Assembly: GCA_944989445.1 (NCBI GenBank)
Contig: CALYLW010000341.1
Span: 524,246 to 588,245, forward strand
Source of the DNA: Ampullaceana balthica
Lineage: Eukaryota; Mollusca; Gastropoda; Lymnaeidae
DNA length: 64,000 bases
Direction of reading: 5' to 3'
Shown here in pieces: positions 8,490 to 64,000 of the stretch. The notes beneath the pieces are model-generated. The model did not search any database. It saw only the letters and a program-made list of their open reading frames with translations, and was not told the DNA's origin. A program made the position numbers and the translations under genes. Positions within the stretch are counted from its first letter, which is position 1. Each line of letters opens with the position of its first letter.

Positions 8490-10797
8490 TCACTGTTGAG
8501 TTGAGTTGCATTTCCTCGAGACTCGGTGGCTCTGCAGTCCTATCCTTGAGTGACAGTCTTTACCACAGCTTTTACACACGAGTTCTGTGCTTCCAAATGT
8601 TTTGGCCTTTCTCCTAGCTTTTCTTTCTGTAGCCTCCTCCATCCTTCGCTCCTCGGCTACTATGACGCCCTCTTCGACAACTGTGCGCCACGTAGATCGG
8701 TCTTCTGCCTTACACTTACACTCCCAGTCGCTTGTGCGTATTCTGGCTGCTTTCATGTCCCTTTGGCAGACATCTTTAAATCGCAGACGTGGGCGACCTG
8801 TCTCCCTCTTTCCCGATGCCAGTTCTCCATATAGGAGGTCCTTGGGGATGCGGCCAGGGCTCATTCTTTTAACATGTCCTAGCCATCTCAGGCGTCTTTC
8901 ACTAAGGATTGAGAACATGCTTTGGGTATTGGCACGCATTAGGACCTCAGTATTAGGCACCTTGTCATGCCATTTAATACCTAGGATGCGTCGCAGGCAT
9001 CTCAAGTGGAAGATATTAAGCTTGCGCTCTTGGGATGTATAAGTGGTCCATGTCTCGCTCCCGTATAGCAGTGTACTAATGACGCAGGCCAGAGCCGTCT
9101 TCACACCATTTTGGGCCCCCGGGCAAAGAAATAGTGTTGGGCCCCTCCCCCGCAGGAATAAAAAAATAAATATACATAATATATATAAATAAACATATTC
9201 CCATGGGGCCCCTATGCTCGTGGGCCACCGGGCAAATGCCCAACGGGCCTATGCGTTAAGACGGCGCTGACGCAGGCTCTATAGACACACAGTTTGGTTT
9301 TCTCTGTTAACTAGGTGTTTTGCCAGACCCGTTTGCTTAATTTAGCCATTGTGGCAGCTGCCTTGCCAATTCTACTGTTTATTTCCTCTTCGATGGACAA
9401 TGTATTGGAGACATTGGAACCCAAGTAGGTGAAGCTGTCCACAACCTCCAAGTTTTCATTGTCGATATTGATGGTAGGAGGAGGCTGTGTGTCTTGGGCC
9501 ATGGTGTGCGTCTTTTTCAAGCTGATTTGCAGACCAAATTCTTTGCAGGCATTGGAGAAGTTTGACACGAGTTGTTGCAAACCAGTTTCTGTGTGTGCTG
9601 TTAATGCCGCATCATCCGCAAAGAGTACTCACGAATTAGGATATCTGTCGTTTTGGTCTTGGCTCGGAGGCGGGCAGTGTTGAAAAGTCCTCCATCAGCT
9701 CTGGTGTGTAACCTGATTCCATCACTGCTATCCTTGAATGCGTATCGAAGCAGTACAGAGAAGAATATTGCGAACAGTGTTGGTGCAAGTACACAACCTT
9801 GTTTAACTCCGCTGCTGACTGGAAAGGCTTCTGGCGTAGCTCCATCGAACTGCACTGTGCCCTGCATATTTTCATGGAACTGTCTGATGATGGCGAGTAG
9901 GTGTGGGGGACAGCCGATTTTTACCAGGATTTGGAATAGCCCGTTGCGACTGACGAAATCAAAGGCTTTCGTAAGGTCCACAAAGGCAATGTATAGTTGC
10001 ATCTGTTGCTCTCTGCATTTTTCCTGGCGCTGCCGTATGGAGAACACCATGTCTATGGTAGACCGACCAGCCCGGAAACCGCACTGAGATTCTGGATAGA
10101 CACGGGATGCTAGACTCTGTAAACGTGTTAGTATGACACGGGCGAAGGCCTTTCCTACAATACTAAGGAGTGAGATGCCGCGATAGTTATTGCAGTCACT
10201 TCTATCACCCTTGTTTTTATATAGTGTCACTATATTTGCATCCTTTAGGTCTTGGGGGATATAGCCCTGTTCCCAGCAGAGGGACAGAAGCTCGTGCAAT
10301 GGCTGTAGTAAAGCTGTATTGCCACTCTTTAGAGCTTCTGGTGGTATGCCATCATTCCCAGGGGCTTTTCCACAAGCTAGGCTGTCAATTGCTTTACTCA
10401 GCTCTTCCTGTGTGGGCATGACATCAAGTTCTTCCATGAGTGGCATATCGGGGATGTCATCTAGAGCGGTGCTGAAGACTGTGGTAACTGTTGGGTACAG
10501 TTCCAGATAATGCTCAACCCACCGTTTTAGCTGTCCTGCCAGGTCTTGGATAATTTCTCCACTTTTGGACTTTAGGGGGGCAACTTTGGACGTCAAAGGG
10601 CCAGTTGCTCTTTTGATATTTTCGTACATGGCTTTGGCATTACCCATCTCTGCAGCTGCATTGTATGCTAGAGCAGATGTTAAGCCAGTAGGCATTGGCG
10701 GGCAACTTTTTGGACATGCAGCCTGTCAGGTGTGGGCTTTTCCTTGTAGGCCGTAAGAGCTTTCCTTTTGGCTTCGGTGACGGGTTTCATCTCGTCC
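8490..10797 (-). pseudogene. Reverse transcriptase of the LINE, frameshifted and interrupted
   Basis: RT motifs appear in order: NYRGISLLS, QCGFRAGRSTIDMVFS, FVDLTKAFD (motif A aspartate), SSGVKQGCVLAPTLF (motif B), then LFADDAAL (catalytic FADD) in another frame owing to a frameshift near 9,630. The thumb and C-terminal part carry FTYLGSNVS, LLYGSETWT and RRLRWLGHVKRM. The extreme C-terminus has a CxxC...HxxxxxxC zinc-finger-like motif. A further frameshift near 10,700 and an insertion at 9,090-9,269 show that the copy is dead. The clade is uncertain (RTE/CR1-like organisation). Confidence 0.85.
9090..9269. mobile_element. hAT-like MITE nested in the LINE
   Basis: Termini CAGAGCCGTCTT and AAGACGGCGCTG are inverted. 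The 8-bp duplication ACGCAGGC is perfect (9082-9089 and 9270-9277). The LINE reading frame resumes on the far side, so this 180-bp insertion is younger than the LINE. Confidence 0.9.
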
Positions 10798-47677: not shown

Positions 47678-47929
47678 AATCTAAATTCTAGAGTTTATAC
47701 TTTTTTTCTATACAAGTCTATAGATTATTCAATTAGAATATTATAAAATTTACATTGCAAAACTTATTAACACAATTTGAACTGAAAGTCATAACAGTGT
47801 GTGCGCACATCTATAGTTTTATTTTACACAACACATTAACACAACCTTCAATTTATACACATCTACGTTGAGTCACTCTTTTCTTTTGGTCACATCTACA
47901 TTCGGATAGCTTAACATTTGTGCACAACT

Positions 47930-50900
47930 ACATTGTGTATTCTTATTATTTGTACACATCTACATTGGGATATCTTATTATTTGTACACATCTACATTGC
48001 GATATCTTATTATTTGTACACATCTACATATCTTATTATTTGTACACATCTACATTGGGATATCTTATTATTTGTACACATCTACATTGGGATATCTTAT
48101 TATTTGTACACATCTACATATCTTATTATTTGTACACATCTACATTGGGATATCTTATTATTTGTACACATCTACATTGGGATATCTTATTATTTGTACA
48201 CATCTACATTGGGATATCTTATTATTTGTACACATCTACATTGCGATATCTTATTATTTGTACACATCTTCATATCTTATTAATTGTACACATCTACATT
48301 GGGATATCTTATTATTTGTACACATCTACATTGGGATATCTTATTATTTGTACACATCTACATTGGGATATCTTATTATTTGTACACATCTACATTGGGA
48401 TATCTTATTATTTGTACACATCTACATATCTTATTATTTGTACACATCTACATTGGGATATCTTATTATTTGTACACATCTACATTGGGATATCTTATTA
48501 TTTGTACACATCTACATTGGGATATCTTATTATTTGTACACATCTACATTGGGATATCTTATTATTTGTACACATCTACATTGCGATATCTTATTATTTG
48601 TACACATCTACATTGGGATATCTTATTATTTGTACACATCTACATATCTTATTATTTGTACACATCTACATTGGGATATCTTATTATTTGTACACATCTA
48701 CATATCTTATTATTTGTACACATCTACATTGGGATATCTTATTATTGTACACATCTACATTGGGATATCTTATTATTTGTGTACATCTACATTGGGATAT
48801 CTTATTATTGTACACATCTACATTGGGATATCTTATTATTTGTACACATCTACATTGCGATATCTTATTATTTGTACACATCTTCATATCTTATTATTGT
48901 ACACATCTACATTGGGATATCTTATTATTTGTACACATCTACATTGGGATATCTTATTATTTGTACACATCTACATTGGGATATCTTATTATTTGTACAC
49001 ATCTACATTGGGATATCTTATTATTTGTACACATCTACATTGGGATATCTTATTATTTGTACACATCTACATTGGGATATCTTATTATTTGTACACATCT
49101 ACATTGGGATATCTTATTATTTGTACACATCTACATTGGGATATCTTATTATTTGTACACATCTACATTGGGATATCTTATTATTTGTACACATCTACAT
49201 TGGGATATCTTATTATTTGTACACATCTACATTGGGATATCTTATTATTTGTACACATCTACATTGGGATATCTTATTATTTGTACACATCTACATATCT
49301 TATTATTTGTACACATCTACATTGGGATATCTTATTATTTGTACACATCTACATTGGGATATCTTATTATTTGTACACATCTACATTGGGATATCTTATT
49401 ATTGTACACATCTACATTGGGATATCTTATTATTTGTACACATCTACATTGGGATATCTTATTATTTGTACACATCTACATTGGGATATCTTATTATTTG
49501 TACACATCTACATTGGGATATCTTATTATTTGTACACATCTACATTGGGATATCTTATTATTTGTACACATCTACATTGGGATATCTTATTATTTGTACA
49601 CATCTACATTGGGATATCTTATTATTTGTACACATCTACATTGGGATATCTTATTATTTGTACACATCTACATTGGGATATCTTATTATTTGTACACATC
49701 TACATTGGGATATCTTATTATTTGTACACATCTACATTGGGATATCTTATTATTTGTACACATCTACATTGGGATATCTTATTATTTGTACACATCTACA
49801 TATCTTATTATTTGTACACATCTACATTGGGATATCTTATTATTTGTACACATCTACATTGGGATATCTTATTATTTGTACACATCTACATTGGGATATC
49901 TTATTATTTGTACACATCTACATTGGGATATCTTATTATTTGTACACATCTACATTGGGATATCTTATTATTTGTACACATCTACATTGGGATATCTTAT
50001 TATTTGTACACATCTACATTGGGATATCTTATTATTGTACACATCTACATTGGGATATCTTATTATTTGTACACATCTACATTGGGATATCTTATTATTT
50101 GTACACATCTACATTGGGATATCTTATTATTTGTACACATCTACATATCTTATTATTTGTACACATCTACATTGGGATATCTTATTATTTGTACACATCT
50201 ACATTGGGATATCTTATTATTTGTACACATCTACATTGGGATATCTTATTATTTGTACACATCTACATTGGGATATCTTATTATTTGTACACATCTACAT
50301 TGGGATATCTTATTATTTGTACACATCTACATTGGGATATCTTATTATTTGTACACATCTACATGGGATATCTTATTATTTGTACACATCTACATTGGGA
50401 TATCTTATTATTTGTACACATCTACATTGGGATATCTTATTATTTGTACACATCTACATTGGGATATCTTATTATTTGTACACATCTACATTGGGATATC
50501 TTATTATTTGTACACATCTACATTGGGATATCTTATTATTTGTACACATCTACATTTGGGATATCTTATTATTTGTACACATCTACATTGGGATATCTTA
50601 TTATTTGTACACATCTACATTGGGATATCTTATTATTTGTACACATCTACATTGGGATATCTTATTATTTGTACACATCTACATTGGGATATCTTATTAT
50701 TTGTACACATCTACATTGGGATATCTTATTATTTGTACACATCTACATTGGGATATCTTATTATTTGTACACATCTACATTGGGATATCTTATTATTTGT
50801 ACACATCTACATTGCGATATCTTATTATTTGTACACATCTACATATCTTATTAATTGTACACATCTACATTGGGATATCTTATTATTTGTACACATCTAC

Positions 50901-51175
50901 ATTGGGATATCTTATTATTTGTACACATCTACATTGGGATATCTTATTATTTGTACACATCTACATTGGGATATCTTATTATTTGTACACATCTACATAT
51001 CTTATTATTTGTACACATCTACATTGGGATATCTTATTATTTGTACACATCTACATTGGGATATCTTATTATTTGTACACATCTACATTGGGATATCTTG
51101 CCATTTGTACACATCTACCTTGGGATATCTTGCCATTTGTACACATCTGCATTGTGTCATCTTGTTATATGTACA
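47930..51175. repeat. Large minisatellite, 32-bp unit with a 25-bp variant, about 100 copies
   Basis: Unit CATTGGGATATCTTATTATT plus TGTACACATCTA. A shorter form lacks the seven bases TTGGGAT (CATATCTTATT...). Other marks are TTGCGATATC, TCTTCATATC and TTATTAATTG, which occur together near 48,250, 48,860 and 50,820, suggesting block duplications within the array. Copies decay towards the right end (CTTGCCATTTG, TGCATTGTGTC). All three plus frames are open for over 800 codons only because the units lack stops. Confidence 0.97.
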
Positions 51176-51194
51176 CATTGAAAGGGTTCAGACG

Positions 51195-51603: not shown

Positions 51604-51728
51604 ACACGAGGTAGGTCGCAGGATCAACTCCACCTGGACAACAGACGGAAGGTCACTTCCCAGCACAGACTGACAGACAAGGTCAAGTCTGTCAAGAGCC
51701 TGATCAAGAAGAAAGATGAAAATCCAAA
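51604..51728 (+). CDS. IQCA1: DRC11 exon A
   Basis: Acceptor CCATCTGACAG with an in-frame TGA just upstream, donor GTGAGT. Basic residues (VKSVKSLIKKKDENP). Divergent from the vertebrate N-terminus; accepted because its phase joins exon B exactly. Confidence 0.6.
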
Positions 51729-54700
51729 GTGAGTTGAGGTTTGACAGATGACAGTAACGTATTACCATTACAAGACATATAACAAGGAGCTGTGTTATTA
51801 TGAAGACGTTATGTTATGCATTTAGTTGTAGATTCTGGATGTAAGCGATTATTCTTTAGTCCTAAGTCTAATTTTATTGATTTCTATATCAGACTTATAT
51901 TAATTAATACGGGCTTCAAAGTTTTAATAACATGATTATAACCCAATTAAATCTCAAAATATTTGTAGTTTCACCGTAATATAATTACAATATAAATTAT
52001 ATTGTCGGGTATGTTAAGGCCCGGTCGTAGATGTCCAGATTAAACGTGAGGGCGAAGCTCAGGAGTTAGTTGTTTGAACTCACACAAGGTTAGGGTCAAG
52101 TGGTTACACTAATAAGTCGTCAACTACAATAGTAATACTTTTAACTACTAAAACAATGGTTTAAAGTTTAAATGGTAGGATGTGACAGATTTACCTATGT
52201 ACAGGTATGCTATGGTAGGACGTGACAGATTCACCTGTATACAGGTATGCTATGGTAGGACATGACTGACTCACCTGTGTACAGGTATGCTATGCTAGGA
52301 CATGACTGACTCACCTGTGTACAGGTATGCTATGCTAGGATGTGACAGATTCACCTGTGTACAGGTATGCTATGGTAGGATGTGACAGATTCACCTGTGT
52401 ACAGGTATGCTATGGTAGGATGTGACAGATTCACCTGTGTACAGGTATGCTATGGTAGGACATGACAGATTCACCTGTGTACAGGTATGCTATGGTAGGA
52501 TGTGACAGATTCACCTGTGTACAGGTATGCTATGGTAGGATGTGACATATTCACCTGTGTACAGGTATGCTATGGTAGGACGTGACAGATTCACCTGTGT
52601 ACAGGTATGCTATGGTAGGACATGACTGACTCACCTGTGTACAGGTATGCTATGGTAGGATATGACTGACTCACCTGTGTACAGGTATGCTATGGTAGGA
52701 CATGACAGATTCACCTGTGTACAGGTATGTTATGGTAGGATATGACTGACTCACCTGTGTATAGGTATGCTATGGTAGGACATGACTGACTCACCTGTGT
52801 ACAGGTATGCTATGGTAGGACATGACTGACTCACCTGTGTACAGGTATGCTATGGTAGGACATGACTGACTTTGCTTCCACCGCACAGGTACACTATCCA
52901 GCCAGGATTTGGCAATCCCCAGTGGCACAAGGCTATCAGACATCTCTATGACGTAGTAAGGGCCGAACCTGTATTTGACACGACTGGCGTACCTGTAAAC
53001 TTCAAGCCGATCAAAAAAGAGAATACTTTAAATTATTTAACTGAAAGGTCAGAGCTTTGTATAAAAATTTTTTTATTTTTTTTCATTCACTAATTTTTCT
53101 CTACATTCATTCATTCAGTTGATTAATTCATTCATTCACTTCTCTCTACATTCAATCAATTAACTAATAAAATCATTCATTCGGTTAATAATTTATTCAT
53201 TCATGGATCTCTTCATTCACTCACTCATTAAACTAAATCATTCATTCATTTATCACATCATTCATTCATTATGTTAACTAAATTATTCACTCATTTATTA
53301 CTACATTCATTCATTCAGTGGACTACTTCATTCTTTTTTTTCTCTAAGGGACGTCACCACTAACTGCCGTCGTCATCATCAGCTATTATCCCCCTTGTTC
53401 CATGTCCTTTTATTTGTAAAATAAATTCTTCTTAACTTCACGAAAACGAAAACTTAAAACATTAATTTCTTGTAGTTTTAAATGTCTATTAAATTTTATT
53501 TTATTTCAATTTTAACGACTACTTTAATATATCATTTGATATGGTTGTACATGTTCAGCAAAATCATTTCCCTTTTGATCATTAAAAAAAGCCCTTCATT
53601 CTATTTGTAACTTCTAATGATATAGTTAAGCTTTAAGAATGTAATACATTTTCCTCCTTCTATCTGATCATGTAAATTTGGATTCCCGCTTATCTATCAT
53701 TAATCTAAATTATAAGATGCCTTCAATCAGTTGTAAATGCCTTTCTAAATATCAATGCACAGAGATATAAATGCCCACACAAATGCCCACTCTAATGCCC
53801 ACACACATTACCGTACAAATACCAACACAAATACCCACAAAAATACTCATACAAAAGCCCATTTTAATGCCTAAACTTATGCCCAGAAAAATGGCAAAGC
53901 TAATGCAAAAACTAATTCCTACACAAACTCCCATATTGATGCCCACACAAATGCCAATTTTAATGCTCATACAAATGCCCAAGCTAATGCCCCCACCTGT
54001 ATCCATGTGTTGTCCCATCTCCACACAGATATGTTCGTTACATGCTAGTGTTCCAAAAACTCAGTGACTGTTTACCGAGACTCATTCACCCACAGAAGAG
54101 ACGACTCCTCAAGAACTGCATAGAATCTGTGGCTGCGAGACTTTGCGAGATTAAGGTCAGTTATATGTACATAGAATATGTGGCTGCGAGACTTTGCGAG
54201 ATTAAGGTCAGTTATACGTGCATAGAATATGTGCCTGCGAGACCTTGCGAGATTAAGGTCAGTTATACGTGCATAGAATATGTGGCTGCGAGACTTTGCG
54301 AGATTAAGGTAAGTTATACGTGCATAGAATATGTGCCTGCGAGACTTTGCGAGATTAAGGTCAGTTATACGTGCATAGAATATGTGGCTGCGAGACTTTG
54401 CGAGACTAAGGTCAGTTATACGTGCATGACGTGCATAGAATATGTGGCTTTAAACCCAATGTTCAATACCTTAAAATTATTGCCCTCCTTCCTGAACAAG
54501 CACCCTCATCTGCACGCGAACATGCGCCATAACCTACTCTAAATACCGCTTCTGCCCCACCACTCAACTTATTACTGAGCCTTCTGATGAACCTACTCAT
54601 AAACCAACTACTGAGCCTTCTCATGAACCAACTACTGAGCCTTCTCATAAACATACTACTGAGCCTGCTCATAAACCAACTACTGAGCCTTTCCATGAAC

Positions 54701-57700
54701 CTACTAGTGAGCCTTCTCATAAACCAACTACTGATCGTTCTCATGAACCTACTCATCTTTTCCTGTTAATGACCTGAAACAACCCGCTGTTTTCTCCAGC
54801 ACCAGATGATCTCTTTCAACAAGTGCATATTTCACTACTTTGACGGCTTGCTGTCTGACTTACGACTGACACCATACAACTTGGAGCTTGTCATACCCAA
54901 ATATATGCTACAGGTAAGTCCTGTTCCCAATAACCAAATACATGCGGCAGGTAAGTCCTGTACCCAATAACGAAATATATGGTACAGGTAAGTCCTGTTC
55001 CCAATAACCAAATATATGCTGCAGGTAATCCCGTTAACCATTAACCAAATATATGCTACAGAAAAACTATGTACCCATTAACTAAGAATAAGCTACAGGT
55101 ACGCCCTGTACCCAATAACCAAAGATACGTTCCTTACTCGAATTTCTGATATGACATAACCATCCTTAAAACATCATAACTTAACTTAAAACATCCTGCG
55201 TCATATTTCCAAGTGGACATCTCTTGGTCCACATTCATTTACTGTATTTATTGGGTGTCCTTGCCTTCCACCGCCTGTAGGAAAGACTCCACGTCATCGG
55301 TATGAGACAGCAGCTCCTGGCTTGGATGATAGGTCGACTGGAGACTTTGAGTGACGCCAAAATTGACGACCTGTTGAACCCACCGACCATCAGCACCAGG
55401 TCCAACAGCAAGGCTTCCCAAAGGGACCAGTCCGAGGCGGTGGTGACCAACACTTCGTCAGAGGACAGCCAAAGGTATTGTTGACATGGTCTTCAGGTGT
55501 TCTCAAACTCTATTAGTGTAGAGTCCTGTTCTAACCAAAGGCATGATGATATGGCCGTTAGGTGTTCTAAAACATTACAAACGCCGTGTTCTGTTCAAAC
55601 CAAAGGTATTGATGACATGGTCCTTAGGTGTTATAAAAGTCCCTTTGTTTACGTCCTTTCTTAAGATCCTTCCCTAAAGTGTTTAAATCCACAAATATTG
55701 GTGGTTAAAGACAATATGGGTAAAATGACATCCTGGTTGATGAAATTCGTCTCATATTTTAATGTTTATTTAATTTGCTATTCCTATTTGCGTAAAAAAT
55801 CGTATCTCATATTTTTGCTAACTCCGCCCGCTGTAGTAATTTCCCTTGATTTCATTGTAATCCTACCTCATATTATAACTTTCCCGTGATGGTCTAATGA
55901 CATCTGACAGTTGTGATGTTGATTCTACCTCAAATTAACCCCACTATTAATGGGCTCCACTATAGAACGTTAACATCTTTCGAAAGTCTCTTTCCTAAAC
56001 CACTAGCATCTAAAAACTTTAGCCTGCCATACGGCATTGTTATCTTGTCGCTACAACTAACCATCTGTATCGTATACAAATTTTTGTTTGTTTCCATCTT
56101 TACCTTTGTCGTTGGTAGAACTTCCATGCTAAATATGACAATATCGTAAGAATCTAATTTGAAAAATCCTTAAGTGAACGCAGTAATATTTTGTTCAGAA
56201 GTAGCGTCTGCAATAGATAAGATAAACTATGATCAGATCTATATGGTTGTATCTATAACATTGCTGTCTTTACAGTGACCATCTCTTAATAGTCAACTAG
56301 TCTTAGACTTAAACCAAGCTTATTCTTAGACTTAGACCAACCCTAATCTTAGACTTTGACCAATAATCTTTTAACACGCTGCTGCTCCTGCGGGGAATGA
56401 TTCTTCCTCTAGGTACACCCCGGATGGCAACTGTCTGTTCTTGATGCGAAGGATATCAAAGAACGCAGATATCGTCCACAAGATTGTCTCCCTGCAGTGC
56501 TGGTGGCGAGTGTGGCTGTGTAAGCAGAAGGTCAACAGAATGAGAGAGGAGGAGTTCGAGGACCTTGGCATGACGCTACCAAAAGGTCCTTCCCTACCAG
56601 ACGACCAGGACATGGTGAGAAACTGTCTTTTTTTTTACCCATGACCTTCGTCACATGCAGCAGGAGTAAGTACTTCAAATGTATAGATTACCAAGGCTCA
56701 TGTTGGCCGACCGTTTAGGCAGACGTCAATTCGGGATGCATTATCCCACTGCGACTTGGTTGCGCTATCTTTAGAAATACCACACACACGTGTATTTGAA
56801 TTTTCAAAGCCAAGTATTTCAGACTTTTTCGTTAACAAATATTTTAGACCTTACAGTGTCATCTATTTTAGATTGATTCAATTACATATATTTTAGGCTT
56901 ATTCAATTTTCCCTTGTTTAAACTTTTTTTTTGGTAATTCCACCTACTTTATGTACCAGCCGTCTTTGGCTGTGTCAATAAACGCTATTTTAAATGTTTT
57001 CTTCAATACGTCTTGATTAAGACGGTCTATGTACCTCACATTTTCTACGGCTAAAACCACCTAATTTAGACTGGTTTAATGAGACCTATTGTGGACTGTT
57101 TCACAACCGCCAATTATACTCTGGTTTAACTCCGCATATTTTAGACGGAATACGAAGAAAAAGAGAAAATGTTCGAAGAACGCGACGAGGAGCTGAACAA
57201 GAACAAATTCGTGGAATATGAGCAGTTCGTGGAACACAAGGGCCTTGACCTTGCCTGGCAGATGAAGCACAACCTCACCCAATGGCTGCTGGAGATGCGC
57301 GACCTCCAGGGGGAATTCCCGGACTACCCCGAGGACGATGAGGGCGGCTGCTACGAGATCTTCCGGGAGAAGACCGTCGAGCAGGTGGCGGAGGAGATTG
57401 AGGAGATGTTGGACCCCAGCCCCAAGGCGCCGCCCCAGCCGCAGCCCAAACCTAAGCCGGTGGTGAAGGAGGTCGTGAAGAAAGACAAGCACGGCAAGCC
57501 GATCATTGAGGATCCCGGGTGGGCGATGCCGCAGTCCAAGACGATGACGCGCATGATTAGACTGCTGAACGAGTACAATGAGTACTGGTACTACAAGTAC
57601 GAGACGGACAACCCGTTCCAGAGGTTCGACAGGGAGCTGATGATGGAGGAGGTCAGGTCGGAGGCGGGGAAGATAATCAGGACACAGGTGAGGGAAGGGA

Positions 57701-60700
57701 GGTTAGCGTGTGAGAAAAGGGGAGGTTAGCGTGTGAGAAAAGGGGAGGTTAGCGTGTGAGAAAAGGGGGTTAGCATGTAAGGGAAGGGAGGTTAGCCTAT
57801 GGGAAAAGGGAGGTTGGCATGTAAGGGAAGCGAGGTTAGCATGTGAGAAAGGGGAGGTTAGCATGTGAGAAAAGGGAGGCTAGCATGTGAAACAAGGGAG
57901 GTTGGCATGTTAGACAAGTGAGTTTAGCGTATGAGACAAGCGAGGTTAGAATATGAGAAAAGGGAGATTAGCGTGTAAGAAAAGAGAGGTTAGCATGTGA
58001 GACTAGGGGGGTAGCACGCGAGAAAAGGGAGGTTAGCATGTGTAAAAAAATGTAAAAAAATTAAACATCTGTAAGTCAACAGCTTTTCAATAGCTTGTTT
58101 TAACTATGTTCAAAATATTGCCTGCACATATTCTTAAAACAAATTTTTATTAACGTGATACTACAGTGATGTGCGTGGTAAAATTTTCATACATTTCGCT
58201 AAATCTCATCCCAAGGAAAACAACAACACAACAACATGAAATGGTCCCCATCACGTCTTTAAAAGTTAACATTCCTTAAAGACCAAATGTTAAAATTGCA
58301 CGTCTGTTTTACCAAGGTTCTAAAATGAAAAGTTCGTGTTCATGTAGAACACAACGACAGAAATATTGACAAATTTGATCCCCTTCAGGTTGACAAACTG
58401 ATGAGATACGAATTAGAGAAACTGAAGTTAACCATAGACGACAAGATATACAAGAGTACCAGTGACAAAATTAAGAAAGTAACAAGTGTTAGGTCAAGGT
58501 CAGTCTTTGTGGGTCACTCTTGGTGTTTTTGTGGGTCATGGTTTGCGTTTTTGTGTTGTTGTTTTTTTGGACTTTGAAATCCTGGCATTTCCTCCCATCT
58601 TCCACAGCATTAGGACCTCATAAAAAATAGTAAATACATATTTCGCTCTACACTCATATTGGATGACTGTTCTCTTGTTGACATTAGACGGCAAGGTCTT
58701 TGATAATTTAAGTATTTATCTCAGTAACATTTTGGGGCCACTCTTAAGGAAAGCGAAAATGATACCTTTTAAGAATTTAGTCCCTAGAAAGAACCTTAAT
58801 TTATTTAAATAATAAAAGGCTACAGCTATAATGGCTTTGGTAAATATTTTTTATAAGACATCATAATAAAGTGTTCAATGGATCACATACTGTGTTTATT
58901 TGTAATGCTCTTTTGTGTGTTGGCACTTCGGGTCAAATACCCACTTCTAATACGTGGGTACAAAATTTAATGTATACAGGATTTTTTATAGAAGAATTTT
59001 TGCCATGGCATCTACATTTACGTGTATTCTGACATCGCTTTAGAAATTGTTGTTTTTTAATAGAATAATAATCTGGGGGTAAGCTTCGTAAAATAAGTAT
59101 TTAAACAAATAATTAAAAAGACATCATCGATTTCTGATAATGTCTTGCTGTTGTCTTGCTGTCATGCAGGACGAAACGAGTGGCCGATCCGACAGGGGGC
59201 AAAACCATCGAGGAGCTCTACGGTGAACTCGTGCTTATGGGCCTTGTCAAACCGGTGAGGAACGTGCGGCTCAAGGATCTTCTCGGTGACTACAACTTTC
59301 AGCAGTCTGCACAGGACGACTGCATCCCCACAGCACCAGACGTGCGCAACCTGATCACCTTACTGCTGGGTCTACCGTTGAGTTCAGAGTTCATCCATAT
59401 GAGTGTGCCGCTAGTCAAGTAATTAATTTTTTTAAAATTTAAATAATTCTATTTGTTCATTAACCTTCAACTATTTTTTGACACCCTTCTGCTGCAACTT
59501 ATCAGACTTTCTTACCCGGGGCGCCTTATTTTTTTTTACCCTTTCGGTTGCTGCCCTTTGCTGGCTCTCTCCCTATGGGCTCTATAATTGCCCCCCAAAA
59601 TATTTATACATGTGTGCAGGGCCCGCTATAGGCATAGCAAAACTAGGCAACCGCCTAGGGCATCCGATTAGTCTCATCAGTAGTGGGGGCCTCGCACAAG
59701 AATCTTTCAATATTTATTTTTCATTTTTCTATTACATTTAGGGCCACCAAATTCACTTCACCTAGGGCATCCAATTTCCTTAGGCCGGGCCTGACGCGTT
59801 CGATACAAGCAAAAGTTTAGAAGTAGGACTGCGGAAATTAACGATTAATTTCTCGATAAATCGTTACAAATTGTTAACGATTATATTATTTTTAAAGATT
59901 AATCGACCCATCACTTGCAAATTATTGGAAGTCAAAAAGTAAAAAAAAATAATAATAATAATAAATAGCGGCCGATAAATAATAAATTTCCTGACGCTTA
60001 CACGAACATTTCGGTCTTAAACTATTGCCTGACGGGAATGTTCAAAATGTTTATAAAGTTTGCCTACTATGGTTCTAACACTTCGCCTACTTATAGGCTT
60101 AGTATAGGACTGTAAGACCAAATGAAAAGCGTATTAAGCTAATGGCAGTAATGGAGTCTGACTAAGAGACAGAAAATGACGACAGCTCTTCTGATGAATT
60201 ACTGCGTTACAAATGGAGAAAAAAGTTCCTGCATCCATTAACCCTCTACAATAGTGGAAACTTAATGAACACCGATATCCGATAATGTCATTTCTTGCCA
60301 AGACCGTTTTGTGCATACCAGTTACCTCAGTTCCATGTGAATGATTTTTCACCTCGGCTGGTTATATTGTCAATTAGACCCACTCATCACTTGAACCAAA
60401 TAATGTCAACAAACTTGTCTTAATGCGTAGTTGGTTAAAAGATGACATATAAAAGAGACATTCCATTGTTATTTAGATTTTCAACAATAACGTTTAATAA
60501 GTGTTACTTATGACATCATACATTTTAATTTTTGGCTTTAATCGAAATTAACGATTAATTAATCGTTAATCTTTCAAAAGTTAACGATTAAATTTAAATT
60601 AATCGTTAATTCCCCTATTTAAAAGTTAATTCACTATCCAAGAGGCTAATTAATTATGTTATAATAGTATTATTAAGTACTTTTAAATATTATTTATTTA

Positions 60701-63700
60701 TGCATTTGTGTAACAGTGCAAATATACTCTCTCTAAAAATTAAGTTAAAAGCATAAGTTGAAAGTAAAAGAATATTATTATAAATAATTAAAAATTGATA
60801 TTTCAATTCACTGTTTTAAATTTTTTTTAAAAATGCAATCGCTTTATCTCAATTCAAGTGTAATTTTGTTCCACGGAACTGGACGTAAATAATGCAAATT
60901 TTTATTAAATTTTTTTATATCAATCAAAAACATTGAAGCTATGTGCTGGAAATAGAAAATATGTGTCAGAAGACAAAGCCGGTTGATAGATATGATGCTA
61001 TGTACTGCTATTAATTTAGCATAGGACTATAAGACAGTAGGAACATAACGTTCTTCAATTCACACATTGACATTTGGCCCCTCACTTTGTGTTGTATGAC
61101 AACCTCTCTAGGATATAACGATCAGCTAATTCTCTCCCCGGCCGATCGGTTGTTCTCATTAAGTTTGATCGTGTTCAAGATTCTTCGTGTTAGCTCCCTT
61201 CCCCCTCACACTTTGTTTGTACAGCGCCATCTTGTTGGCCGGCCCACCAGGGACAGGGAAGACAACTCTAGTGCACGCCATCTGCCGGGAGACGGGAGCT
61301 AACTTGATCGACTTGTCACCGTCCAACCTGGCCGGCAAGTTTATAGGCACAATAGAGCAGAACTACCTCAAGTATGTCGCCCTAAAGGTAAGGTAGAATT
61401 ATCTCAAGTACATTGCCCTAAAGGTAAGGTAGAATTATCTCAAGTACATTGCCCTAAAGGTAAGGTAGAATTATCTCAAGTACATTGCCCTAAAGGTAAG
61501 GTAGAATTATCTCAAGTACATTGCCCTAAAGGTAAGGTAGAATTACCTCAAGTACATTGCCCTAAAGGTAAGGTAGAATTACCTCAAGTACATTGCCCTA
61601 AAGGTAAGGTAGAATTACCTCAAGTACATTGCCCTAAAGGTAATGTATAGTTACCTCAAGTACATTGCCCTAAAGGTAAGGTAGAATTACCTCAAGTACA
61701 TTGCCCTAAAGGTAAGGTAGAATTATCTCAAGTATGTCACTTTGAAGGTAGGCTAAGGTAGAATTACCTCAAGTACATTGCCCTCAAGGTAAGGTATAAT
61801 TACCTCAAGTACATTGCCCTAAAGTTAAGGTAGAATTACCTCAAATACGTCGCCCTAAAGGTAATGTAGAATTACCTCAAATACGTCGCCCTAAAGGTAA
61901 GGTAGAATTACCTCAAATACGTCTCCCTAAAGGTAATGTAGAATTACCTCAAATACGTGGCCCGAAAGTTAAGGTAGAATTACCTCAAATACGTCGCCCT
62001 AAAGTTAAGGTAGAATTACCTCAAGTATGTCACTTTGAAGGTTAGGTAGAATTACCTCAAGTACATTGCCCTAAAGGTAGGGTAGAATTACCTCAAATAC
62101 GTCGCCCTAAAGGTAATGTAGAATTACATCAAATACGTCGCCCTAAAGGTAAGGTAGAATTACCTCAAATACGTCTCCCTAAAGGTAATGTAGAATTACC
62201 TCAAATACGTGGCCCGAAAGTTAAGGTAGAATTACCTCAAATACGTCGCCCTAAAGGTAAGGTAGAATTACCTCAAATAAGTCGCCCGAAAGTTAAGGTA
62301 GAATTACCTCAAGTATGTCACTTTGAAGGTTAGGTAGAATTACCTCAAATACGTCGCCCTAAAGGTAATGTAGAATTACGTCTAATACGTCGCCCTAAAG
62401 GTAAGGTAGAATTACCTCAAATACGTCTCCCTAAAGGTAATGTAGAATTACCTCAAATACGTGGCCCGAAAGTTAAGGTAGAATTATCTCAAACACGTCG
62501 CCCTAAAGGTAAGGTAGAATTACCTCAAATACGTCGCCAGAAAGTTAAGGTAGAATTACCTCACGTATGTCACTTTGAAGGTTAGGTAGAATTACCTCAA
62601 GTACATTGCCCTAAAGGTAGGGTAGAATTACCTCAAGTACATTGCCCTAAAGGTAGGGTAGAATTACCTCAAGTACATTGCTCTAAAGGTAAGGTAGAAT
62701 TACCTCAAGTACATTGCCCTAAAGGTAAGGTAGAATTACCTCAAGTATGTCACCCTAAAGGTAGGGTAGAATTACCTCAAGTACATTGCCCTAGAGGTAA
62801 GGTAGAATTACCTCATGTATGTCGCCCTAAAGGTAAGGTAGAAATACCTCAGGTCCTTAGCCCTAAAGGTAAGGTAGAATTACCTCAAGTAGATTGCCCT
62901 AAAGGTAAGGTAGAATTACCTCAAGTATATTGCCCTAAAGGTAAGGTAGAATTACCTCATGTACATTGCCCTAAAGGTAAGGTAGAATTACCTCAAGTAC
63001 ATTGTCCTAAAGGTAAGGTAGAATTACCTCAAGTACATTGCCCTAAAGGTAAGGTAGAATTACCTCATGTACATTGCCCTAAAGGTAAGGTAGAATTACC
63101 TCAAGTACATTGCTCTAAAGGCAAAGTAGAATTACCTCAAGTACATTGAGTAAAGGTAAGGTAGAATTACCTCAAGTATGTCGCCCTAAAGGTAAGGTAG
63201 AATTACCTCAAGTACATTGCCCTAGAGGTAAGGTAGAATTACCTCATGTATGTCGCCCTAAAGGTAAGGTAGAAATACCTCAGGTCCTTAGCCCTAAAGG
63301 TAAGGTAGAATTACCTCAAGTAGATTGCCCTAAAGGTAAGGTAGAATTACCTCAAGTATATTGCCCTAAAGGTAAGGTAGAATTACCTCATGTACATTGC
63401 CCTAAAGGTAAGGTAGAATTACCTCAAGTACATTGTCCTAAAGGTAAGGTAGAATTACCTCAAGTACATTGCCCTAAAGGTAAGGTAGAATTACCTCATG
63501 TACATTGCCCTAAAGGTAAGGTAGAATTACCTCATGTACATTGCCATAAAGTAAGGTAGAATTACCTCATGTACATTGCCCTAAAGGTAAGGTAGAATTA
63601 CCTCAAGTACATTGCCCTAAAGGTAAGGTAGAATTACCTCATGTACATTGCCCTAAAGGTAAGTTATAGATTACCTCAAGTATGTCGCCCTAAAGGCAAG

Positions 63701-64000
63701 TTAGCATTACTTCAAATAGTCTTTCACGTAATGACAAATAACTTTAAGTAGGTCGCCTTACTTAAAGGTATAGCGGAATTACCTTAACTTCAAGACTGGC
63801 GCTGTAAAGGTATGTAGGAGACAAACGCTGCGAGCAATGAAAGGGACCGGACCTGCTAACGGGATATACTTTGTCCTCTGATAAGAATTGAACATGTATC
63901 TGGCTTATCATTTATCCCATAAGAGTATCCCAAAACTTTCATCATCGCTATGATCCTCTGATCCCCACCAGGTTGGCAAGGCGATGGAACCCACCGTGTT
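51604..64000 (+). CDS. IQCA1: Dynein regulatory complex subunit 11 (IQ and AAA domain protein), 11 exons, partial
   Basis: DRC11 is a subunit of the nexin-dynein regulatory complex that links axonemal doublets and controls ciliary beating. Exons: A 51604-51728, B 52889-53047, C 54029-54155, D 54800-54913, E 55281-55474, F 56413-56614, G 57145-57687, H 58389-58498, I 59170-59418, J 61225-61387, K 63972 to beyond the window. All phases agree (2,2,0,0,2,0,0,2,2,0), giving about 671 codons. Identity rests on IHPQKRRLLK (exon C), the IQ motif (F), the acidic/proline/lysine region with EFPDYPEDDEGG (G), EELYGELV (I) and AILLAGPPGTGKTTLVHAIC (J). The Met-containing first exon and the rest of the AAA+ domain are outside. 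The helix with RQGRLRA known between exons E and F of the vertebrate protein was not found. The symbol is used for the family, not as proof of one-to-one orthology. Confidence 0.9.
52165..52875 (+). repeat. Minisatellite of 40 bp, about 17 copies, ending at the acceptor of exon B
   Basis: Unit ACAGGTATGCTATGGTAGGA plus YRTGACNGAYTCACCTGTGT. The last unit runs directly into the acceptor of exon B, and the exon border itself (GCACAG|GTACACTATCC) resembles the unit (GTACAG|GTATGCTATGG). Each unit therefore carries an acceptor-like TGTGTACAG. Confidence 0.9.
52889..53047 (+). CDS. IQCA1: DRC11 exon B
   Basis: Acceptor CCACCGCACAG, donor GAAAG|GTCAGA. Reads GFGNPQWHKAIRHLYDVVRA and FDTTGVPVNFKP; clearly coding by composition and phase, but not aligned by eye to the vertebrate N-terminus. 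Confidence 0.75.
53085..53330. repeat. Degenerate ATTC-rich repeat
   Basis: CATTCATTCATTCA runs separated by variable 10-20 bp in intron B. Confidence 0.85.
53331..53764. other. Intron B sequence without recognised feature
   Basis: No repeat or coding signal apart from general AT richness. Confidence 0.4.
53765..53995. repeat. Degenerate ATGCCCACACAA repeat before exon C
   Basis: Repeats of about 12-18 bp built on ATGCCCACACAA. The acceptor of exon C, 33 bp further on, reads CTCCACACAG|ATATG and resembles the unit, but the units lack AG. Confidence 0.8.
54029..54155 (+). CDS. IQCA1: DRC11 exon C
   Basis: Acceptor ATCTCCACACAG, donor ATTAAG|GTCAGT. VRYMLVFQKLSDCLPRLIHP then QKRRLLKNCIE corresponds to the family block with YIKIFQ...VHPQKR. 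The last 27 bases are repeated in the array that follows. Confidence 0.9.
54156..54445 (+). repeat. Minisatellite of 51 bp copying the end and donor of exon C
   Basis: Unit GTCAGTTATACGTGCATAGA plus ATATGTGGCTGCGAGACTTT plus GCGAGATTAAG, about five copies after the exon. The exon end GCTGCGAGACTTTGCGAGAT plus TAAG is part of the unit. 51 is 17 codons and the exon frame stays open through the array. Donor-like sites lie at 54156, 54207, 54258, 54309 and 54360; the one at 54309 is GTAAGT. Confidence 0.93.
54555..54765. repeat. Minisatellite, 24-27-bp unit, about 8 copies
   Basis: ACTACTGAGCCTTCTCATAAACC-type units between the exon C array and exon D. Frames on both strands are open by chance. 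Confidence 0.85.
54800..54913 (+). CDS. IQCA1: DRC11 exon D
   Basis: Acceptor GTTTTCTCCAG, donor CTACAG|GTAAGT, 38 codons, phase 0 to 0. HYFDGLLSDLRLTPYNLELV then IPKYMLQ matches the family block with LQDLKVTP and IPVPKYFLQ. Confidence 0.92.
54914..55125 (+). repeat. Minisatellite of 37 bp copying the end and donor of exon D
   Basis: Unit GTAAGTCCTGTTCCCAATAA plus CCAAATATATGCTACAG, about six copies. The last 17 bases equal the end of exon D, so each unit recreates CAG|GTAAGT. 37 is not a multiple of three. Confidence 0.93.
55281..55474 (+). CDS. IQCA1: DRC11 exon E
   Basis: Acceptor CCGCCTGTAG, donor CAAAG|GTATTG. ERLHVIGMRQQLLAWMIGRL continues the family helix; the second half is a Ser/Thr-rich loop. 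Confidence 0.88.
55475..55645 (+). repeat. Diverged repeat of about 66 bp copying the donor of exon E
   Basis: GCCAAAG|GTATTGTTGACATGG at the exon border returns as ACCAAAGGCATGATGATATGG and ACCAAAG|GTATTGATGACATGG. About 2.5 copies, more diverged than the other arrays of this gene. Confidence 0.8.
55650..56410. other. Intron E, no further feature recognised
   Basis: No exon with the expected RQGRLRA helix was found here in either of the compatible phases. Weak TTAGACTTAGACC repeats lie at 56,285-56,355. Confidence 0.4.
56413..56614 (+). CDS. IQCA1: DRC11 exon F with IQ motif
   Basis: Acceptor CTTCCTCTAG, donor GTGAGA. IVSLQCWWRVWLCKQKVNRM is an IQ-type calmodulin-binding helix with the conserved Gln; the Arg is present but the Gly is replaced by Val. 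MREEEFEDLGM then follows as in the family. Confidence 0.9.
57145..57687 (+). CDS. IQCA1: DRC11 exon G (largest exon)
   Basis: 181 codons, GC-rich and unlike its flanks. Coiled coil (EYEEKEKMFEERDEELNKNK), then LQGEFPDYPEDDEGG, a proline/lysine linker (KAPPQPQPKPKPVVKEVVKK), and WAMPQSKTMTRMIRLLNEYN. The acceptor is TATTTTAG and the donor CACAG|GTGAGG. Minus-strand frames over it are shadows. Confidence 0.93.
57688..58045 (+). repeat. Minisatellite of about 23 bp starting at the donor of exon G
   Basis: GTGAGGGAAGGGAGGTTAGC followed by about fifteen GTGTGAGAAAAGGGGAGGTT plus AGC units with variation. The donor GTGAG is repeated; exon bases are not. Confidence 0.88.
58046..58388. other. Intron G, no further feature recognised
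   Basis: AT-rich, no element ends seen. Confidence 0.4.
58389..58498 (+). CDS. IQCA1: DRC11 exon H
   Basis: Acceptor CCCCTTCAG, donor AAG|GTCAGT. VDKLMRYELEKLKLTIDDKI, a charged helix matching the family segment with VDEIMRQELKNLKLAVD. Confidence 0.9.
58499..59169. other. Intron H, no feature recognised
   Basis: Begins with a GT-rich stretch (GTGGGTCA twice, TTTTTGTG). No element or exon was found. Confidence 0.4.
59170..59418 (+). CDS. IQCA1: DRC11 exon I (N-terminal part of the AAA+ region)
   Basis: Acceptor GTCATGCAG, donor GTAATT. GGKTIEELYGELVLMGLVKP, LKDLLGDYNF and PDVRNLITLLLGLPLSSEF match the segment before Walker A in the family. Confidence 0.92.
59617..59793. mobile_element. hAT-like MITE with CAGGGCCCG ends
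   Basis: CAGGGCCCGCTATAGGCATA at one end and, inverted, CAGGCCCGGCCTAAGGAAAT at the other; internal CTAGGGCATCC repeats. No clear target duplication was seen. Confidence 0.65.
59824..60617 (+). mobile_element. hAT deletion derivative (copy 3 of 3)
   Basis: Ends TAGGACTGCGG and TTCCCCTA; flanks TTTAGAAG and TTTAAAAG match at seven of eight bases. The remnant of the dimerisation domain is more decayed than in the other copies and contains a small insertion near 60,100. Confidence 0.88.
60640..61224. other. Intron I, no further feature recognised
   Basis: AT-rich up to the pyrimidine tract of exon J. Confidence 0.4.
61225..61387 (+). CDS. IQCA1: DRC11 exon J with Walker A
   Basis: Acceptor TTTGTTTGTACAG, donor CTAAAG|GTAAGG. 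ILLAGPPGTGKTTLVHAICR is a canonical P-loop GPPGTGKT, then ETGANLIDLSPSNLAGKF. Mammalian IQCA1 proteins have a weaker P-loop at this place (from memory), so ATP binding seems better preserved here. The last 27 bases are the source of the array that follows. Confidence 0.95.
61388..63690 (+). repeat. Minisatellite of 36 bp, about 64 copies of the end and donor of exon J
   Basis: Unit GTAAGGTAGAATTACCTCAA plus GTACATTGCCCTAAAG. Exon J ends AGAACTACCTCAAGTATGTC plus GCCCTAAAG|GTAAGG, so every unit is a diverged copy of 27 exon bases plus the donor. Subtypes (CAAATACGTCGCCC, CATGTACATTGCCC, CTTTGAAGGTTAGG) alternate in blocks, and 62,760-63,100 and 63,140-63,530 share a duplicated block. In the exon frame each unit carries TAG (GTA AGG TAG). 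Confidence 0.97.
63972..64000 (+). CDS. IQCA1: DRC11 exon K (start only)
   Basis: Acceptor ATCCCCACCAG, then VGKAMEPTV in phase 0, corresponding to the segment after Walker A (VAR..QPSVIWI) that leads into Walker B. Cut by the window edge. Confidence 0.85.

Follow-up and report, generated by a model that had tools for sequence, protein, structure and literature searches.

Minisatellite-like tandem duplications of exon–intron boundaries, termed 'mirages', have been reported in amphioxus (PMC3087553, PMC3902484), in the globin genes BflGb6 and BflGb9 and in Adh3 (PMC3087553), with lancelet PGBD5 and troponin C as further cases (PMC3902484). In the globins either boundary can be duplicated, the units in Adh3 measure 10–72 bp, the copy number at BflGb6 differs between two haplotypes and Adh3 shows somatic instability (PMC3087553). 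Mirages seem not to disturb regular splicing (PMC3087553, PMC3902484), and the authors proposed them as a source of new introns (PMC3087553). Intron gain by tandem duplication is also the subject of the Rogers model, in which AG|GT is duplicated (cited in PMC3087553), and of a case in the potato RdRp gene (PMC4974935). In human segmental duplications, genes contain variable internal tandem repeats, some of them at exon–intron boundaries (PMC2812944).

Here we describe arrays in the snail gene DRC11. The type of structure is already known from the amphioxus mirages, and snail DRC11 adds a case in another phylum. As in amphioxus, short junction-spanning units stand in tandem and many copies keep their AG or GT signals (PMC3087553, PMC3902484); in DRC11 the units are of minisatellite size, span the boundary at exons C, D, E and J and keep GT in many copies. 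Unit lengths vary between genes, and the 10–72 bp of Adh3 overlap the 22–66 bp found here (PMC3087553). Unlike the amphioxus cases, the arrays occur in a snail, where five donors of a single gene carry them in up to about 65 copies, and they strongly favour donors over acceptors, whereas both boundaries are reported in amphioxus (PMC3087553); this comparison is drawn from the DNA of one haplotype. The human internal repeats likewise have short units (about 30 bp on average) that alter gene structure, at times at boundaries, but half of them lie in coding sequence, they belong to primate-specific paralogues and, in the text cited, they do not start from multiple donors within a single conserved gene (PMC2812944). 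Among the literature matches listed there was no report of junction minisatellites in molluscs, and the partial texts of studies of Conus introns (PMC3862624), earthworm metallothionein (PMC12783039) and C. elegans minisatellites (PMC4039745) contain no junction array.

The DRC11 gene and its surroundings

The gene lies at 51605–64000 of the window, by which we mean the whole 64-kb stretch of DNA that was analysed, and is of the DRC11 (IQCA1) type, encoding a component of the motile cell hair. Ten exons, A–J, and the start of an eleventh, K, join into a single open reading frame across all joints, and the protein that they encode together matches DRC11 chains of known structure (PDB 8j07, E 7.4e-85). 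All lie on the plus strand. Exon A (51605–51728), whose 5′ limit is uncertain, and exons B (52889–53047), C (54029–54155), D (54800–54913), E (55281–55474), F (56413–56614), G (57145–57687), H (58389–58498), I (59170–59418) and J (61225–61387) are placed by open frame and DRC11 homology, and K, which begins at 63972, by open frame. In protein alignments the identity is 57% to DRC11 of Bulinus truncatus and 56% to that of Biomphalaria glabrata, and tblastn with snail DRC11 proteins matched nine of the ten exons with the same or nearly the same borders, exon A being without a match. On these matches the DNA very probably comes from a gastropod. The protein alignment is free of gaps at the C/D, D/E, E/F, G/H and J/K joints, where arrays sit, and these joints carry no extra residues relative to the two snail orthologues, both of which are database predictions compared by protein alignment only. 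An earlier note on this DNA had named the gene as DRC11, which the open frame from A to K, the 8j07 match and the orthologue alignments bear out.

Upstream of the gene, a minisatellite with 106 copies of a 32 bp unit occupies 3.3 kb (47851–51178), ending 427 bp before exon A; it generates spurious open reading frames of 1146, 1104 and 856 codons. An open reading frame on the minus strand at 9601–10695 contains a reverse transcriptase domain (RVT_1, E 1.7e-25, Pfam) and by its look belongs to a non-LTR-like element. It gave the only match among seven open reading frames submitted to Pfam, out of 19 listed with at least 110 codons, and those seven contained no second intron-bearing gene to serve as a control.

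Arrays at the donors

Tandem repeats were located with TRF, which returned 47 rows for the 64-kb window. Within the gene we used 13 merged arrays with a period of at least 10 bp, arrays of shorter period being excluded in every analysis. Each donor was in addition compared with its own downstream intron. By this comparison the junction recurs cleanly downstream at half of the ten donors, namely C, D, E, G and J; for A, B, F, H and I no such copy was detected. The arrays at the five donors have periods of 22–65 bp and 2.6–65 copies, and in every one of them the real donor is the outermost, that is the first, copy.

The copied stretch contains, beside the donor, about 39 exon bases at C, 21 at D, 6 at E, 0–3 at G and 29 at J. 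The C array (54117–54427, plus strand like all the arrays described here; 51 bp × 6.1) repeats the last 39 bases of exon C with the donor and about 12 intron bases, and the D array (37 bp × 6.4, ending at 55127) the last 21–26 bases of exon D with the donor, its start falling at 54893 by TRF and at 54888 by the lag scan described below. At E the array (55469–55638; 65–66 bp × 2.6) takes in the last 6 exon bases and the donor, and at J a long array (61359–63715; 36 bp × 65) takes in the last 29 exon bases, the donor and 7 intron bases. The G array (57688–58042; 22 bp × 16) starts at the donor GT itself, which makes it borderline as a boundary-spanning unit. A short repeat beyond exon H (58506–58555; 22 bp × 2.3) starts 8 bp past the last exon base and does not span the donor; an array ahead of exon B is likewise non-spanning. 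The periods given in the earlier note for donors C, D, E, G and J (51, 37, about 66, about 23 and 36 bp) agree to within about a base with those from TRF (51, 37, 65, 22 and 36 bp). Its claim that the last exon bases and the donor are multiplied together in C, D and J is confirmed by the donor–intron comparison, and E, with 6 exon bases in its copied stretch, joins these three.

A lag scan made without TRF gave a matching picture. It found 103 exon positions with a tandem copy, all in the 3′-terminal parts of exons C, D, G and J, where they make up the last 44, 24, 6 and 29 window starts, respectively; its threshold misses donor E. In none of the ten exons did the scan find a repeated exon interior.

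Arrays near the acceptors

Four arrays approach an exon from upstream, and each leaves a stretch clear ahead of it. The B array (52172–52866; 40 bp × 17.4) stops 23 bp before exon B, a degenerate 12/24 bp array (53770–53996) 33 bp before exon C, a 24 bp array (54588–54753) 47 bp before exon D and a 23 bp array (56297–56363) 50 bp before exon F. It is in these 23–50 bp that a branch point and a pyrimidine tract would ordinarily lie. The earlier note had an array ending at the acceptor of exon B; we find that its actual end is 23 bp short and that its unit resembles the acceptor only by a weak match of 11 of 13 bases at ACAGGTACACTAT, a score reached by 57 of 2,000 shuffles. The lag scan, at a threshold under which donor E is missed as well, showed no duplication at any of the ten acceptors (exons A–J), and the comparison of acceptors with introns was blind to matches below a score of 30, the query having overlapped its target. 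The arrays resemble intron gain by tandem duplication in that a splice signal is copied in tandem, but they differ from it in that no acceptor here is a clean array copy; with none of the ten acceptors duplicated in the lag scan and the partial match at B, we found no intron with both ends derived from a duplicated unit.

Probable tolerance of duplicated donors

The arrays are probably mirage-type minisatellites that arose by ordinary tandem duplication and were retained where splicing tolerates them. According to this explanation, separate short tandem duplications would straddle or touch exon ends and later expand and partly homogenise, the further copies arising by slippage or unequal exchange. 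When a duplication straddles a donor, the original would remain in first place and the later copies would fall inside the intron; the first-transcribed donor, beside the real exon, would stay in use, and the mRNA would be unchanged. Because the first donor would still be used, a duplicated donor should do little harm, and the array could survive. A segment holding branch point, pyrimidine tract and AG would be copied less freely, so that arrays on the acceptor side would stop short. A sign of exchange within an array is seen at J, where a block of 339 bp (62765–63103) recurs identically 431 bp downstream (63196–63534); the repeated block is longer than one unit and looks recent, as unequal exchange would leave it.

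Published data bear on the splicing behaviour that this supposes. Where tandem donors are of equal strength, reporter libraries show a first come, first served use that does not hold for tandem acceptors; where strengths differ, the stronger donor dominates (PMC6783452). With exon definition, pairing joins the sites nearest to each other across the exon; in short introns, with intron definition, it joins those nearest across the intron (PMC9225289). A first-come rule would account for donors being spanned and acceptors not, and for the arrays on the acceptor side ending 23–50 bp short. The earlier note had offered tolerance as one of its inferences, and the outermost position of the real donor, the duplication of five of ten donors against none of ten acceptors, the clearance of 23–50 bp and the reporter data all support it. 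Use of the first donor in the snail, an origin of the copies by slippage or unequal exchange, and a pattern set by tolerance and not by targeting are our inferences.

Excess at junctions and a possible bias of origin

Tolerance predicts that, per base, arrays at donors should be no commoner than in the intron interior. We compared this with a null in which every array was collapsed to one unit and placed anywhere except wholly within an exon or across two boundaries. Donors were spanned by five of the 13 units against 0.70 expected (P 3.7e-4), and donors and acceptors taken together by five against 1.33 (P 0.007), both values being post hoc and for one gene; the observed counts were taken by hand from the scan and the donor–intron comparison. 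With 3, 8 or 22 bp of slack, P lay between 9e-5 and 6e-4 for donors, and between 0.003 and 0.010 when acceptors were included; slack of 8 or 22 bp brings in H, making six donors, and slack of 22 bp also brings in B as an acceptor. Restricting the donor test to nine of the 13 arrays, that is omitting a CATT-rich array and three arrays of 2.0–2.3 copies, gave P 6e-5 to 6e-4. In the lag scan four of ten donors were duplicated (E being missed), compared with 3.4% of those intron positions that lie over 60 bp away from a donor (P 2e-4) and 4.5% of all intron positions (P 7e-4). The crowding extends to both ends of the introns: arrays spanning or lying within 50 bp of any junction number 11 of 13 (3.45 expected, P 2e-5), within 36 bp 9 of 13 (2.86 expected, P 3e-4) and within 25 bp 7 of 13 (2.39 expected, P 0.004). 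All these tests were made after the fact on a single striking gene, with distance limits set once the data had been seen. To that extent the donor count sustains the judgement of the earlier note that junction arrays are more numerous here than expected.

An excess of donors over intron interiors is not something the first-come rule predicts, and if it holds genome-wide it would need a bias of origin. That five of 13 units span donors and that 11 of 13 arrays lie within 50 bp of a junction are hints of such a bias and count against tolerance as the whole explanation; as a sign of biased origin the donor excess is suggestive only. It is possible, if doubtful, that duplication is aimed at exon ends, some property of the junction raising the rate of tandem duplication and tolerance then retaining the products. 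A process at junctions was the other inference of the earlier note, and the significant donor excess in this gene leaves it possible. Co-transcriptional R-loops, a stalled polymerase, or the step in base composition or nucleosomes between exon and intron might, on this doubtful reading, be the aiming factor. It draws further on first copies in the lag scan, which make up 4.5% of collapsed intron positions in the gene against 1.25% in the flanking 51.6 kb, and is weakened by its dependence on a single gene chosen for its striking look, with post hoc distance limits, and by the mostly unrelated units.

We compared eight units in all 28 pairs: those at B (40 bp), C (51 bp), D (37 bp), E (65 bp), G (22 bp) and J (36 bp), one 24 bp intron unit and the upstream 32 bp unit. 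The units in 27 pairs are unrelated, and blastn at E 1e-3 found none of the eight outside its own array. The sole exception is D and E (54893–55638), which share AGTCCTGTTC and adjoining bases, a likeness reached in 0 of 200 shuffles and then in 10 of 10,000 plain and 14 of 10,000 Markov shuffles; at about 0.03–0.04 once 28 pairs are allowed for, it is borderline, and it possibly reflects exchange between neighbouring arrays, or chance. The earlier statement that the unit sequences are unrelated thus holds for all pairs but this one. A common seed for all arrays was considered and rejected, only D/E having passed.

Splice signals and reading frame of the copies

Many copies retain the donor dinucleotide: among the segmented places, GT is present in six of seven at C, five of seven at D, two of three at E, 12 of 16 at G and 57 of 67 at J. 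Scored with a donor matrix, 38 copies in the J array, the real donor included, equal or exceed the real J donor, and one C copy outscores the real C donor (12.6 versus 8.4). The exon-like part of a C copy ends at 54308 and is followed by GTAAGT, stronger than the real GTCAGT. Copies in the G array have T or C at −1, a poor base there. If the frame is read on beyond the real donor, stops follow 55 bp on at D, 8 bp at E, 40 bp at G and 7 bp at J, those at E and J falling inside the first inserted copy, and use of the second-copy donor would shift the frame at D and G; the first donor is thus needed at these four exons for a full-length protein. At C the array continues the frame of the exon and stays open for 385 bp (54156–54540), and by its sequence each copy could in principle add 17 residues if inner donors were used.

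For our preferred explanation, tolerated duplication, the stronger C copy counts against use of the first donor, given the dominance of the stronger site in the reporter libraries (PMC6783452), and intron definition, were it to apply, would favour the inner copies (PMC9225289). The same open C array, in which donors are intact and the unit measures 51 bp (17 codons), and the 57 GT retained at J are what could be cited for a function of the arrays, in which extra donors would strengthen exon recognition or give alternative exon lengths, such as steps of 17 residues at exon C. We regard this as very unlikely: a later donor, if used, would introduce a stop or shift the frame in D, E, G and J, and both snail orthologues lack such a repeat. 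The J copies do vary most at third codon positions (9.2 minor variants per site, against 6.3 at first and 2.5 at second positions), but the copies are non-independent and the contrast counts copies, not events, so we did not rely on it as coding constraint on the exon-derived part. The least probable reading is coincidence, by which one gene in a minisatellite-rich genome would have gained several donor arrays by chance: the flanking 51.6 kb do hold 19 merged arrays (period at least 10 bp) and DRC11 was chosen after the fact, but a null using only DRC11's own arrays gave P of about 4e-4 when donors alone were counted and 0.007 with acceptors added.

Significance

A structure known from a few amphioxus genes is extended by these arrays to another phylum, at five donors of DRC11. 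That donors are copied and acceptors spared would follow from the choice among tandem donors. For annotators, repeats of exon ends carried in introns may mislead gene models. We think it rather unlikely that exon–donor boundaries are a preferred birthplace of minisatellites throughout the genome in the snail lineage, beyond mere tolerance. If they were, exon ends would steadily supply introns with arrays of decoy donors, a standing stock from which new exon lengths and introns might be drawn. This could then be relevant to haemocyanin genes of heterobranch (Tectipleura) snails, in which introns are reported to have been gained independently (PMC7931591). Such genomes are natural experiments in the choice of a splice site among up to dozens of equal donors, and they also bear on whether junctions breed repeats and introns.
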